Part shown: piece after piece, positions 56,408-61,452 of the stretch
Numbering within the stretch: the first letter of the stretch is position 1
How the letters are laid out: each line of letters opens with the position of its first letter
Origin: Bacillus sp. Cs-700
GTDB taxonomy: Bacteria > Bacillota > Bacilli > Bacillales > Guptibacillaceae
Direction: 5' to 3'
Length of the DNA stretch: 64,000 nucleotides
Assembly (NCBI RefSeq): GCF_011082085.1
Contig: NZ_CP041063.1
Span: 3,954,001 to 4,018,000, forward strand
Notes under the pieces: model-generated
Told to the model about the DNA's origin: nothing
Seen by the model: only the letters and a program-made list of their open reading frames with translations
Databases searched by the model: none
Position numbers and translations under genes: made by a program

Positions 56408-56468
56408 TTAGGTAGAGAGGGGTTTTTTAGCTTTCTATCCTCCATATGCAAACTTTAAATACTTAGGG

Positions 56469-56504
56469 AAAACCCACCAAAACGTCATTTGGTGGGTTTT
56501 TTGT
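56469..56504 (+). terminator. Terminator after the small membrane protein
   Basis: AAAACCCACCAAA, loop ACGTCA, TTTGGTGGGTTTTTT. Confidence 0.9.
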
Positions 56505-56595
56505 TTTTATTGGCGTTTACTGGCCCTTTGTAACTTTTTTAAGGATCATCTCGTCTAGTATAGAAAGGTCGTATCAATGGAAGGAGAAAGACTCC

Positions 56596-56955
56596 ATGAA
56601 ACGTGAGAAAATCTTGTTCGTTCTATTGGTTGCCGCTTTACTAACTGGTTGTGGAAGTATGGAAGAGAAGGACTCTAACTCATCAAGTCAAAATTCGGAG
56701 CAAACGAGTCGAGAAGCAGAAGTGGAGAGTGATTTCTCTGCACAGATTAAGATGATCGCAAATGATGAGAAAATTATTGAAATGCTAAAGGATTCCGGTG
56801 AGATTCCGGACAACGCTAGCGGTACAGAAATCCACGAGGCGTTAGAAGATTATTTGAAGAAAAAAACAAAAAATGCTGAAATAAATGAGAAATCAAGTGA
56901 GAAGTATATCGAGGATTTAAAAAAGCAAATTCAGCAAAATCTTCAAAGAGAATAA
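56596..56955 (+). CDS. Lipoprotein resembling the propeptide of the adjacent M6 protease
   Basis: 119 residues. Signal MKREKILFVLLVAALLTGC with lipobox LTGC (Cys19), a Ser/Gln/Glu linker to about 48, then a helical domain. Residues 54-90 (IANDEKIIEMLKDSGEIPDN ... EALEDYLKKK) align without gaps to residues 55-91 of the M6 protease prepropeptide (IANEEKLIEMLKESGKISKN ... QALESFLEKK), with more than half of the positions identical. A stand-alone propeptide fixed to the membrane could bind the protease as chaperone or inhibitor (inference). It has its own ribosome site (GGAAGGAGA) and terminator. Confidence 0.72.
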   Translation: MKREKILFVLLVAALLTGCGSMEEKDSNSSSQNSEQTSREAEVESDFSAQIKMIANDEKIIEMLKDSGEIPDNASGTEIHEALEDYLKKKTKNAEINEKSSEKYIEDLKKQIQQNLQRE

Positions 56956-56979
56956 TTAATATACCTGCATAGTAAATAG

Positions 56980-57020
56980 AAAACCAAGGGTCAACGATTT
57001 ACGTTGACCCTTGGTTTTTT
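56980..57020 (+). terminator. Terminator of the propeptide-like lipoprotein
   Basis: AAACCAAGGGTCAAC, loop GATTTAC, GTTGACCCTTGGTTTTTT. Confidence 0.9.
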
Positions 57021-57210
57021 GAGTTTAATGTGTCGAAGCGTTATTGCGAAAAAATAATAGTAACGGTGAAACACAATACTTTAGAACCATTACTTTTGGT
57101 AGAATATTGTCATTTTTCTAGTAAAATACGTTTATTTTAAAGTTAATTGCCGAACGTCGTGACTTTCGAATCATTCAAATTTTTCAGATAAAGGGATATA
57201 GTGAGATTAT

Positions 57211-57227
57211 TGTAAAGTTATTGTAAA
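57211..57227 (+). promoter_or_regulatory. WalR/PhoP-like direct repeat before the M6 protease
   Basis: TGTAAA-GTTAT-TGTAAA: two hexamers with 11-bp period, matching the WalR consensus TGTWAH-N5-TGTWAH (PhoP boxes are similar on the other strand). It lies 25 bases before the TTG start, so it is close to or overlapping the transcript start. Confidence 0.4.
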
Positions 57228-57252
57228 AAACATTTTTAGGGGGAATGGGATT

Positions 57253-59646
57253 TTGAAGGGGAAAAACGTATTGTCGATGGCGATGATTGCCGCGTTAACG
57301 CTAAGTGCATTTTCAACACCTAGCGCAAGCGCAGCGGTTCAAACTGACACAACTCCAGTAAAGCAGGAAGTGAAGAAAGAAGCAGTACATAAGGAAGGAC
57401 CATTTGATCTCGCGATTGCGAATGAAGAGAAATTGATTGAGATGCTAAAAGAGTCCGGCAAAATCTCAAAGAATGCTTCAGCAGAGGATGCCGAACAAGC
57501 ATTGGAAAGTTTTCTGGAAAAGAAATCAGAATCACTTCAAGAAAAGGATTCTAGTGGTGAATTAGAAGATGAAAAGCTTGAGATTGAAGATGATATTAAT
57601 GAAAAATTAAAAAATGGCAACAAGGATAAAGCGAAGGGGAAATATAGTAAAGGCGGTAAAAACCTTGCACCGGTTGTTGAAGAAGAATATGACGGAGACG
57701 TTCGATCAGATAACGTCCTCGTTCTACTTGTTGAATTCCCAGATTTTCCTCATAACAGCATCCAGCCAGAAGAATCGGACATGTACTATGAGGACTATGT
57801 GAAAGAACATTATCAAGATATGATTTTCGGTGAAGACGGGTATGAAGGGCCGAATGGGGAAAACCTCGTATCCATGAAGCAATTCTATGAAGAGCAAAGC
57901 AATGGCGCTTATACCGTGAATGGTGAGGTTGCTGGTTGGTATATGGCATCTAAAAATGCGGCTGAATACGGTGGGAACTATCCTACTGAAGATGATAGTG
58001 ATAAGGATGCACGTGGACTTGTGAAGGAAGCTCTTACTGCAGCTGCGGCAGACCCGGATTTAAATCTAGCAGACTATGATCAGGAAGATCGTTATGACCT
58101 TGATGGCGACGGAGACTTCCGTGAGCCGGACGGTTTAGTTGATCACTTAATGGTTGTTCACTCGGCAGTTGGGGAAGAAGCAGGCGGAGGCCAACTTGGA
58201 CCTGACGCAATCTGGTCTCACCGTTGGAATCTTGGAGGGATTTTCCCAATTGAAGGATCTCCAGAACCAGAAGTCGATTACTGGGGTGAAGGTTCAATGT
58301 ATGCGTACGACTACACAATCGAGCCTGCCGACGGCGCTGCCGGCGTATTTGCGCACGAATATGGTCATGATTTAGGTCTACCTGATGAATATGATACGCA
58401 GTACTCAGGTGAAGGAGAAGCGGTTGCTTACTGGTCCATTATGGCTAGCGGTAGCTGGGCAGGAAAAGTTCCAGGAACGGAACCAACTGGTTTTAGTGCA
58501 TGGTCGAAGGAGTTTCTACAAGCTTCTCAAGATGGAAACTGGTTGAAGTATGATGAAGTAGATTTAGAAGACATTGATAAAAAAGGTTTAGAAGTTTATC
58601 TTGATCAGGCGAATACGAAAGGGACAAACCTTGATGCGCTCCGTATTAACCTGCCAGATAAAGAAACGGTCATTAACGAACCATTCAGTGGGGAATTTGA
58701 GTATTTCAGTGGAAGCGACAATGATTTAGACAATTCGGCTGTCATGAATGTCGATCTCTCAAGTGCTACATCTGCAGAACTAACGTTTAAAACATGGTAC
58801 GACATTGAAGAAGACTGGGATTATGGTTCCGTTCAAGTGAGTGAAGACGGTGAGAATTGGAATACAATTCCTGGTAACATTACAACTCAAACGAATCCGC
58901 ACGATAGTAATCCGGGAGACGGCATTACGGGTAAATCAGACGGATGGATTGATGCTTCATTTGATTTAAGTGCTTATGCTGGTAAAGACGTTCAGGTGAA
59001 AATCAATTACTGGACTGATGGTGCGGCAATTAACCCTGGTTTTTATGTGGATGATGTTCGCGTAACGGCGGATGGCAATGAGCTTTTCTTTGATGATGCT
59101 GAAGGAGAGCCAAAGGTTGATCTACAAGGATTTACGAAAGATAATGGTATTAAAGTATCTGAACACTATTATCTTCTTGAATGGAGAAACCATCAGGGTG
59201 TTGATAAAGGGTTGGATCACATTTCACGCGGTGCAAGTCTGATGTCTTATGATCCAGGTCTAATTGTTTGGTATGCGGATAATAAATACTCGGATAACTG
59301 GACAGGCATTCACCCAGGAGAAGGCTACCTTGGCGTAGTTGATGCTGACCAACATGAATTGTTCTGGAGTGATGGCACTGTAGCGCAAACGCGTTATCAA
59401 ATCCACGATGCAGCGTTCAGTCTCCGTAAAGATGAAAAAATGTTCATTGATTACAGCGAGCTTCTAGGCCGTACTCTAACTGACAAGAAGAACCAATTTG
59501 TGAAAGAATTCAATGATAAGAAGAGTTACTTAAACGAAGCGATTCCAGATGCTGGCCGTAATGTGCCACAATACGGATTGAAGTTCAAAGTAACAGGCGA
59601 AGCGAAAGATCGTTCTGTTGGACGAGTTCTTATCACACAAAAATAA
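57253..59646 (+). CDS. Secreted M6 metalloprotease (immune inhibitor A type)
   Basis: 797 residues. Signal peptide (MKGKNVLSMAMIAALTLSAF, cleavage near SASA/A at 27), propeptide to about 150, catalytic domain with FAHEYGHDLGLPDEYD (HEYGH at 368-372, zinc), the M6 Met-turn WSIMASGSW, then a jelly-roll segment (about 480-620, FYVDDVRVTADGNELFFDDA) and a C-terminal beta region ending GEAKDRSVGRVLITQK. Relatives in Bacillus cereus cleave antibacterial peptides and host proteins. The TTG start has AGGGGG nine bases upstream. Monocistronic. Confidence 0.88.
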   Translation: MKGKNVLSMAMIAALTLSAFSTPSASAAVQTDTTPVKQEVKKEAVHKEGPFDLAIANEEKLIEMLKESGKISKNASAEDAEQALESFLEKKSESLQEKDSSGELEDEKLEIEDDINEKLKNGNKDKAKGKYSKGGKNLAPVVEEEYDGDVRSDNVLVLLVEFPDFPHNSIQPEESDMYYEDYVKEHYQDMIFGEDGYEGPNGENLVSMKQFYEEQSNGAYTVNGEVAGWYMASKNAAEYGGNYPTEDDSDKDARGLVKEALTAAAADPDLNLADYDQEDRYDLDGDGDFREPDGLVDHLMVVHSAVGEEAGGGQLGPDAIWSHRWNLGGIFPIEGSPEPEVDYWGEGSMYAYDYTIEPADGAAGVFAHEYGHDLGLPDEYDTQYSGEGEAVAYWSIMASGSWAGKVPGTEPTGFSAWSKEFLQASQDGNWLKYDEVDLEDIDKKGLEVYLDQANTKGTNLDALRINLPDKETVINEPFSGEFEYFSGSDNDLDNSAVMNVDLSSATSAELTFKTWYDIEEDWDYGSVQVSEDGENWNTIPGNITTQTNPHDSNPGDGITGKSDGWIDASFDLSAYAGKDVQVKINYWTDGAAINPGFYVDDVRVTADGNELFFDDAEGEPKVDLQGFTKDNGIKVSEHYYLLEWRNHQGVDKGLDHISRGASLMSYDPGLIVWYADNKYSDNWTGIHPGEGYLGVVDADQHELFWSDGTVAQTRYQIHDAAFSLRKDEKMFIDYSELLGRTLTDKKNQFVKEFNDKKSYLNEAIPDAGRNVPQYGLKFKVTGEAKDRSVGRVLITQK

Positions 59647-59648
59647 TA

Positions 59649-59683
59649 AAAAAAAGGAGCGGGAATTTTCGCTCCTTTTTTTA
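59649..59683. terminator. Bidirectional terminator after the M6 protease
   Basis: AAAAAAAGGAGCG, loop, CGCTCCTTTTTTT, between the convergent protease and DUF11-type genes. Confidence 0.88.
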
Positions 59684-59694
59684 TTGCATTCTGA

Positions 59695-61251
59695 TCATTG
59701 AGAAAAACGTCTGCACTGACCGCAGCCTGATTTCTTCTTCTGACACTTCTTACAACGTCCAATAAAGTTTACTGGCACACTTGGAATTGGAGGAAGCGGT
59801 GTTTGAACGAGCACGTCAACTTGATTACTAATACTAACTCCTTGAAACACAGGGCCTCCAGGGGTGCTCTCAAATTGGAAAAATAATTCAGTTGCATCAG
59901 ATAAGAGAGAAGTTTCTGGCTGAGAGGTTACTCGAATTTGAAAGGAAATATTAACTGATTGTCCTGGTTCAATCGTACCAAGTGAAATAGGAGATACCGT
60001 CGGGTCACCTGGATTTGGTTCGCCATCAACTATGAGGGTTCCTGGGACAAAGGTTCCTCCTGGTGTAATGAACACATCATCAAATAACACCACTTCTGCA
60101 GAAACTAGTCCTGTATTCACAATACCGACAGTGTACGTAATAACATCGCCAACATTTGCAGTGGCAGGAGTTGCTGTTTTAACAGATTCAAATACAGGTG
60201 CATTTACATCGAATTGAACACCTAAAGCATTTACGGCATAGCCATCTCCTGCGGTTCTTAATTGCACAACAGCAGAACTTTGGTTATTGATGAGGGCAAA
60301 AGAGACATCAACATTCGTAATATCCCACCCTTGCCGCCCTGCATTGATGTTGGTTGCAGTAAAAGGATTAGCGTTCCGATCGCCAAAAGTTCCCAAAGTG
60401 TCTAAGTTACCGGAATCATTATTAATTTGAGACCCGAAAAAGTTGTTTACAGGGTTATTCAGCCCAGAAATTGTCGTTAACATAGGAACGGTTGGACCAA
60501 ACAGAAGCTGATCACCCGTAATGGACGCATCTCCTTCACCAGCACTGACTAACAGTCGGCCATTAATGGGTCCGGAAACCGGCGTGTTAAAGCCCGTAAT
60601 GGTAATGTCTACGGCAGTACCGGTAGAAATAATCGCTTCAAGGCCGACAAAAAGAGTCATAAATCTTGGAGGCTGTGTCGGATCTTCATAAATAACAGCG
60701 AGCGTCCAGCCAGCATGATTGGAGTTCGAAGCTGGATCTAATAATGCAGGTACAGCTCCTGCAGAATAAGTGCCTTCTAATTGAGCAGCCACGATACTCG
60801 TTACATCCCGAGACCTTACATAATAACCTACTGTTTCAGAACCGTTATTAAAGACTTGCTCAAACGAGGTCGCTGGATCGGGGGGAATGCTATAAACATT
60901 GCCGGAAGGATCGACGAATTGAATGGGATTATCAATTAAACCAGAGATGTCCTGGTTATTAGTGAGATACTGTCCCTCCCATATTAATTCAGCATAGAGA
61001 ACTCTACTTAATCCGGCAACGTTGTTTATATGCAAAATAGCAGATGATAAACTCTCTGTATAATTTTGTGTCGTACCAGGAGGGGGAGTAGGGTAAGTAG
61101 GGACACCTGTGTTTTGCAATGTAATAAAAGAACCAATGGAGCCTTGTGTTCCTGCGGCTAATGTATTGTTTTGCTTACTTAATCCCAGTGTATTTCCCGT
61201 AAACGTCATCGAGCCATCAGTTGTCGTTGTAAAGCGTTGAATATATGGCAT
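59695..61251 (-). CDS. DUF11-type surface/spore protein with Cys-rich tail
   Basis: 518 residues starting MPYIQRFTTTTDGSMTFTGN, no signal peptide. Residues ~1-360 are Gly/Asn/Thr-rich beta-strand sequence (NTLGLSKQNNTLAAGTQGSI). A DUF11 immunoglobulin-like repeat follows (about 365-480, TPATANVGDVITYTVGIVNT). The C-terminus is GRCKKCQKKKSGCGQCRRFS. Similar bacillar DUF11 proteins are found in spores or exosporium without classical secretion. The open frame extends to 61296, but ATG 61251 has AAAGGA eight to nine bases upstream. Confidence 0.72.
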   Translation of the reverse strand: MPYIQRFTTTTDGSMTFTGNTLGLSKQNNTLAAGTQGSIGSFITLQNTGVPTYPTPPPGTTQNYTESLSSAILHINNVAGLSRVLYAELIWEGQYLTNNQDISGLIDNPIQFVDPSGNVYSIPPDPATSFEQVFNNGSETVGYYVRSRDVTSIVAAQLEGTYSAGAVPALLDPASNSNHAGWTLAVIYEDPTQPPRFMTLFVGLEAIISTGTAVDITITGFNTPVSGPINGRLLVSAGEGDASITGDQLLFGPTVPMLTTISGLNNPVNNFFGSQINNDSGNLDTLGTFGDRNANPFTATNINAGRQGWDITNVDVSFALINNQSSAVVQLRTAGDGYAVNALGVQFDVNAPVFESVKTATPATANVGDVITYTVGIVNTGLVSAEVVLFDDVFITPGGTFVPGTLIVDGEPNPGDPTVSPISLGTIEPGQSVNISFQIRVTSQPETSLLSDATELFFQFESTPGGPVFQGVSISNQVDVLVQTPLPPIPSVPVNFIGRCKKCQKKKSGCGQCRRFSQ

Positions 61252-61452
61252 TTCACATTTCCTTTCTTTAGACTTTTTGCTAGGCAGCTTGTACATAAAT
61301 TGTTAAAAGCTTTGCTTGTACTAATGTATGCAACACCATTATTTCCGTGATGAATGAAATGTTTGTTTTTTAACGCTGAGGGGCTTATCAAGTTTAATAG
61401 ATCTCTTCTGAGACTTGTTAAGTCTGTTCTTTAATGTGGCGATTGTTTGGTA
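61252..61452. other. Intergenic region upstream of the DUF11-type gene
   Basis: About 200 A/T-rich bases. They must hold the promoter of the minus-strand DUF11-type gene, but I see no clear -35/-10 and no gene. Confidence 0.3.

Follow-up and report, generated by a model that had tools for sequence, protein, structure and literature searches.

A stand-alone, prodomain-like lipoprotein associated with InhA-type M6 metalloproteases: a candidate lipid-anchored docking module

The lipoprotein and the protease at the locus

Within a 64,000-nucleotide stretch of Bacillus sp. Cs-700 (contig NZ_CP041063.1, positions 3,954,001 to 4,018,000; hereafter the window), which belongs to a genome of 4.3 Mb (G000) from a genus coded here as g1, a gene for a small prodomain-like lipoprotein lies directly before one for an M6 metalloprotease. 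The former, recognized from its reading frame, homology and alignment, occupies 56596..56955 on the forward strand including the stop codon and encodes 119 amino acids. The latter, on the same strand at 57253..59646 (797 amino acids, stop codon likewise included in the coordinates), starts 297 bases past the lipoprotein stop codon. It has the makeup of an InhA-type protease: Pfam recovers the M6 catalytic domain (residues 145-431; 57685..58545, forward strand) along with the InhA-like MAM and InhA-like VEG domains, the HEXXH motif is read from the translation as HEYGH at residue 368, and the Protein Data Bank (PDB) entry 4yu5 is matched with an E-value of 5e-173.

The lipoprotein begins with a signal peptide and a lipobox of the sequence L-T-G-C (56641..56652, forward strand), as is characteristic of bacterial lipoproteins. 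The lipobox cysteine, Cys19, is invariant in all 38 aligned members of the family described below; the copy from the genus g8 has a poor lipobox. An AlphaFold model with a mean predicted local distance difference test score (pLDDT) of 71 has a disordered linker (residues 23-47, pLDDT below 50), a helix at residues 55-67 and a long helix at residues 76-118, with the pLDDT averaging above 90 for residues 61-90 and 76 for residues 51-60. The prodomain core, as delimited by alignment and model (residues 54-90; 56755..56865, forward strand), comprises the first helix, the turn and the start of the second helix, while the remaining C-terminal part of the long helix is charged and carries the family motif K..YI..LK..I (56866..56952, forward strand). 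This is the arrangement of lipobox, linker and charged helix that a first-pass annotation of the window had described. Searches with the Pfam and NCBIfam models returned only sub-threshold matches for this protein, mostly to lipoprotein families at the signal peptide, such as LPAM_1 in Pfam with 17 bits, which is under its cut-off of 20.

Residues 54-90 of the lipoprotein align without gaps to residues 55-91 of the protease, the core of its prodomain as recognized by alignment and PDB sequence match (57415..57525, forward strand), with 22 of the 37 positions being identical. The mature lipoprotein scores 141 against the propeptide region, far above the maximum of 89 from 5000 shuffles (z 12.5), and BLASTP of this single pair yields an E-value of 2e-12. 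Once the lipoprotein itself and the protease are set aside, the next-best score among the 282 reading frames of the window is 46. The gapless match claimed in the first-pass annotation is thus upheld. Among PDB sequences, the best match of the lipoprotein is 5abk, the N-terminal domain of PrtV from Vibrio cholerae (phmmer, E 1.6e-4), and the protease also matches both 5abk and the InhA entry 4yu5. A Foldseek search with the lipoprotein model ranks 5abk first as well, with a non-significant E-value of 0.57 and a probability of 0.63. According to PMC2613228, the forms of PrtV of 81 and 73 kDa begin at residue 106, and hence its N-terminal domain is taken off, as a propeptide is. Of the protease model from AlphaFold, with its mean pLDDT of 49, only the helices of the prodomain were used, which lie at residues 54-67, 77-100 and 103-122. 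Weak homology continues past residue 90 into the C-terminal helix of the lipoprotein. Accordingly, the earlier description of this protein as essentially a propeptide on a lipid anchor holds with respect to the homology of the module, and falls short with respect to its extent, which reaches beyond residues 54-90. To judge from these alignments, the lipoprotein is akin to a prodomain that is missing both its N-terminal segment and its last, cleavage-side part.

Distribution, conservation and association with InhA-type proteases

Stand-alone lipoproteins of this family are found in at least 38 of the 397 genomes of the order, distributed over five genera: 12 genomes belong to g1, 11 to g47 (Fictibacillus-type), 12 to g28, two to g50 and one to g8. 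This is a lower bound, with weak matches excluded and at most 11 candidates scored per genome. A search for lipobox proteins bearing the M6 prodomain module, which the first-pass annotation had put forward as a check, hence recovers a genuine family whose distances to M6 genes differ by genus. A 39th copy, in the g28 genome G239, has no in-frame lipobox and shows a leader-like stretch in another frame. This copy (L140:4172-4420) sits directly before an M6 gene, and both it and the prodomain of the adjacent protease have H in place of the otherwise invariant N (one of 33 and one of 39 distinct rows, respectively), a coincidence that is suggestive and not relied on here. In a sample of 398 genomes from the class (E up to 1e-6), lipoprotein-sized stand-alone frames were found only in G000 and G059, with two further short frames of 213 (G704) and 228 (G540) amino acids being left out. 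A spread of the module through the whole class is ruled out by this sample.

Across the 38 aligned lipoproteins, C19, A55, N56, D57, E58, I61, L64, K65, G68, A74, I79, Y86 and K90 are invariant. Pairwise comparisons of seven of the 12 genus genomes reveal a lower nonsynonymous divergence (dN) in the core than in the linker in 21 out of 21 pairs, the two values being nearly equal in two of them. For example, between G000 and G004 the dN is 0.12 for the core and 0.47 for the linker, with a synonymous divergence (dS) above 2. We further constructed a tree from 39 core residues of 33 distinct lipoproteins and 39 distinct prodomains. Within the bounds set by its small number of columns and by the very long branch of G239, a single branch divides the lipoproteins from the prodomains with a support of 100/99, and the clustering by class was equalled by none of 500 shuffles. 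While the polar positions N, E, K and K are common to both classes, position 25 is Ile in 33 of 33 lipoproteins as against Ala in 36 of 39 prodomains, position 6 is Ile in 32 of 33 lipoproteins as against Leu in all 39 prodomains, and position 32 is Tyr in the lipoproteins as against Phe or Tyr in the prodomains. These class-specific helix residues would be in line with a module that is no longer joined to a protease.

The two classes also differ immediately before the core. There, all 26 partner proteases possess a GPFDL segment (57397..57411, forward strand, in the window), and P[FIVL]D is present at this site in 37 of the 45 distinct protease prodomains from the retrieved loci. In all 38 lipoproteins, GPFDL is absent from the nine residues that precede the core; a P-x-D triplet occurs within the preceding fourteen residues in two of them, and a hydrophobic-Asp pair, shifted one residue closer to the core, remains in g28 and g50. 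This weakens the notion, advanced in the first-pass annotation, of a plain copy of the propeptide. In their study of the InhA2 zymogen, Arolas et al. (2016, in Structure) reportedly traced latency to the N-terminal segment of the propeptide, whose alpha-amino group binds the zinc. If this mechanism applies here, the lipoproteins would be docks that no longer have their plug.

The InhA VEG domain is encoded in all 38 lipoprotein genomes as opposed to 131 of the 359 others, with G239 counted among the others. A lack of such co-occurrence with M6 genes had been named beforehand in the first-pass annotation as one half of the grounds for abandoning its proposal, and the reverse was found. In 131 of the 169 genomes with an InhA-type protease, no such lipoprotein turned up in our search. 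Two genomes of g1, G003 and G010, have neither the InhA-type protease nor the lipoprotein, and the efflux and TetR genes of the flanks are still present in both; a single loss could account for both absences. In 25 of the 38 genomes, from three genera and in two gene orders, the lipoprotein gene adjoins an M6 gene of the same strand: it comes before the protease in g1 (gap of 271-645 bases, stop codon included) and in g50 (194-195), and after it in g47 (81-98). Hence, the picture of the lipoprotein as a neighbour of the protease carries over to these 25 genomes and not to the other 13. When the 12 neighbourhoods from g1 were compared with two from g47, the lipoprotein and the protease were the sole pair of gene families common to both sets, the other flanking genes differing between them.

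Several further genes at or related to these loci deserve mention. In G281 (L136), an otherwise unlinked lipoprotein lies about 1.2 kb from a second M6 gene with one gene in between. The window's genome itself has another M6-like match, a distant one, within a 914-residue open frame (G000:C1:2357187-2357804, reverse strand; L002). Beyond the protease, on the reverse strand of the window (59695-61296), is a gene for a DUF11-repeat protein with a Cys/Lys-rich C-terminus, which adjoins the protease in four of the 12 genus neighbourhoods compared.

An ECF-type promoter motif before the lipoprotein gene

Alignment of upstream regions revealed a motif of the type recognized by extracytoplasmic function (ECF) sigma factors, TGTAAC-N17-CGTCTA, before the lipoprotein gene (56529..56557, forward strand). 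It emerged only from this alignment, the sigma-70 scan being blind to ECF promoters. In g1, the motif (TGTAAC, 16-17 bases, CGTCTA) starts 60-69 bases 5' of the start codon, and it is strict in nine of the 12 promoters and has one mismatch in the remaining three. Both g50 copies have a strict motif and the g8 copy has one with a single mismatch, these three genomes being from another family. Thus, the motif is present in 15 of 15 lipoprotein promoters from three genera, 11 of them strict and four with one mismatch, and it precedes none of the 26 partner proteases. It fits the consensus that PMC8024623 gives for SigX of B. subtilis, tgtAACnww / CGwCww.

A hairpin scan further identified a terminator-like hairpin of 20 pairs 3' of the lipoprotein gene (56977..57021, forward strand), one 3' of the gene upstream of it (56467..56502) and one 3' of the protease gene (59649..59682, listed on the reverse strand); in all, the 5-kb region has nine terminator-like sites as against a shuffle mean of 3.6. 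The hairpin between the two genes and the separate promoter motif speak against co-transcription of the lipoprotein with the protease in the window, and are in keeping with the first-pass suggestion that their doses could be set independently.

The window's genome has four strict motif sites, compared to two for the reversed pattern, and each of the four is followed by a gene in its own orientation. Three of these genes encode lipoproteins, namely the prodomain-like one, one with a BsuPI domain and one with DUF4349, while the fourth is a LytR-CpsA-Psr gene that starts 156 bases behind its site. The BsuPI (intracellular proteinase inhibitor) lipoprotein with its ECF-type motif (G000:C1:3327470-3327498, reverse strand; L183:2983-3450) recurs in several genus-mates and is possibly another protease inhibitor anchored in the membrane whose gene follows this signal. 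The DUF4349 lipoprotein (L181:1586-2443) and its relatives likewise have the motif in several genus-mates. Downstream genes were read behind the motif sites only: at 27 of 30 loci, drawn from 47 strict sites, there is a frame of at least 80 amino acids with a ribosome-site-like stretch, 49-144 bases from the motif start. By eye, 23 of these 27 frames begin like lipoproteins (seven prodomain-like, six of the BsuPI type, six of the DUF4349 type and four others), with Pfam confirming the BsuPI assignment for three and the DUF4349 assignment for two. One of the 27, in a single genome, is a gene for an ECF-type sigma factor, and a looser version of the motif precedes seven of the 17 matches to that protein, with about 0.04 expected per stretch. 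In G002, G004, G006, G007, G008, G011, G012 and G013, the ECF motif is closely preceded by an inverted element, GGGTCAGGC..GTGCCTGACCC or a variant of it, which was not seen in the window.

Proposed function and comparison with known systems

We propose that the lipoprotein is a stand-alone, lipid-anchored prodomain module that is induced by envelope stress in the window's genus and docks at the membrane on the M6 protease of the same organism, most likely restraining it. This reading is tentative, and we place its probability at about 0.42. Under envelope stress, expression of the gene would be switched on independently of the protease, a step suggested by the motif and thereby limited to g1, g50 and g8. 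The product, whose lipobox predicts the corresponding processing, would then be anchored on the outer face of the membrane, at the end of a disordered linker. Its helical core would bind the M6 catalytic domain at the site of the protease's own prodomain, as the homology and the genomic association suggest. The outcome is the least certain step: it might be restraint of the M6 protease near the membrane or capture of the active enzyme. The former is favoured by the analogy with Spi (see below) and by the presence of the motif before a BsuPI lipoprotein as well. Restraint would keep new enzyme near the membrane off the cell's own surface proteins during envelope stress. The latter outcome is favoured by the loss of GPFDL.

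A number of observations weigh against this proposal. Being without GPFDL, the module may dock and yet not inhibit. The co-occurrence with InhA-type proteases represents five genera rather than 38 independent events, and there is no adjacent M6 gene in 13 of the 38 genomes (12 of g28 and the one of g8). The ECF motif is found in none of the 11 g47 and none of the 13 g28 copies (G239 counted), and the best ECF-sigma match in the window's genome (L226) is without it. Moreover, strict sites number 47 against 27 reversed-pattern controls in 21 genomes, and 35 against 18 in the 14 genus genomes, where nine of the 35 belong to this lipoprotein, so that single sites can be due to chance.

The loss of GPFDL from lipoproteins that retain the helical core, set against its persistence in the partner proteases, lends itself to a tether in place of an inhibitor. 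Such a tether would capture active M6 after its own prodomain leaves and form a stress-induced shield at the membrane, for example against antimicrobial peptides. The ECF motif before the lipoprotein is also consistent with this, and so is the degradation of attacins and cecropins by inhibitor A of B. thuringiensis, as given in the title of a reference in PMC2613228. However, the proteinase-inhibitor-domain lipoprotein in the same putative regulon points to restraint, and we regard the tether as the main, if doubtful, contender. We are slightly more skeptical of the idea that, under envelope stress, the lipid-anchored modules recapture active M6 so as to make a diffusible protease surface-bound on demand.

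Other alternatives concern the partner or the activity. The helical module might bind a third partner of both prodomain and lipoprotein, or it might have been reused for an unrelated envelope function; the location of the gene away from M6 in g28 and g8 and the fixed, class-specific residues at positions 25 and 6 would agree with this. Yet every lipoprotein genome has an InhA-type protease and adjacency to M6 occurs in two gene orders, which makes it unlikely. Propeptides often serve as intramolecular chaperones, and a membrane location would suit a foldase or secretion helper that aids the folding of the protease or strips its own prodomain for activation. A helper of this kind sits poorly with partner proteases that all retain their own GPFDL and prodomain core, with the many InhA-type protease genomes in which the search found no lipoprotein, and with an ECF motif that the protease does not have; it strikes us as quite improbable. 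Finally, the adjacency of the two genes in the window might suggest that the similarity arose by chance, or that the lipoprotein gene is a piece of the protease gene that was duplicated recently and has no function. Chance similarity is ruled out by the 5000-shuffle test. Recent duplication or gene conversion is ruled out by the separate tree branch and by the core bases, only 58-74 of 111 of which are identical in 26 pairs. Together with the occurrence in five genera and the constrained core, this leaves such an origin with next to no likelihood.

If the lipoprotein indeed docks on M6 as proposed, it would have no forerunner among M6 proteases within the literature searched: our search, with most subscription papers outside its reach, found no stand-alone M6 prodomain partner described. 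It would also illustrate the division of a propeptide into a docking part, which the lipoprotein seems to keep, and a blocking part, which it seems to have lost. As the same motif marks a proteinase-inhibitor-domain lipoprotein, the system suggests an ECF envelope-stress response that guards or arms the surface against the cell's own secreted protease.

PepSY, I9 and I29 are propeptide-type domains that exist also as separate proteins. The lipoprotein differs from inhibitors of these types in that none of their Pfam models, nor that of BsuPI, is among its five Pfam matches (E up to 1). It has a homologous helical module in common with the N-terminal domain of PrtV (5abk) and the prodomain of the InhA zymogen (4yu5/4yu6), the relationship of the helical core to the former being recovered by phmmer. 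However, those modules are fused to the protease, whereas the lipoprotein has a lipobox and lacks both [GT]P[FI]DL and the part on the cleavage side. In terms of regulation, the motif resembles that of the SigX-type regulons of B. subtilis, by the consensus given in PMC8024623, and a LytR-type gene also has it; the several ECF-type factors of the organism studied here are candidate readers.

The Bacteroides proteins Bfi and Bti are small predicted lipoproteins encoded beside C10 protease genes, for which protection of the envelope has been proposed. They are predicted to be beta-sheet, staphostatin-like proteins with no significant identity to propeptides (PMC2873492, PMC3462683), in contrast to the helical prodomain homologue described here. 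A close parallel to the latter is the SpeB-Spi pair of Streptococcus pyogenes, in which the C10 protease SpeB is accompanied by Spi, a propeptide analogue encoded beside speB (PMC2873492). Spi is believed to guard its producer against toxicity (PMC2873492, PMC3462683) and to act in the cytoplasm, and it is transcriptionally coupled to speB (PMC3462683). Both systems have a separate, small propeptide-like protein whose gene lies beside that of the protease, with homology to the propeptide of the partner and, in our case, adjacency in the window and in the 25 genomes noted above. They differ in that the lipoprotein is lipid-anchored, has a predicted M6 rather than a C10 partner and is only a putative inhibitor, and in that a hairpin lies between its gene and that of the protease and its own ECF-type promoter motif is present in three genera. 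Thus, while separate propeptide-like partners have a precedent in SpeB-Spi, what is new here is the lipid anchor, the missing GPFDL segment and the ECF motif.

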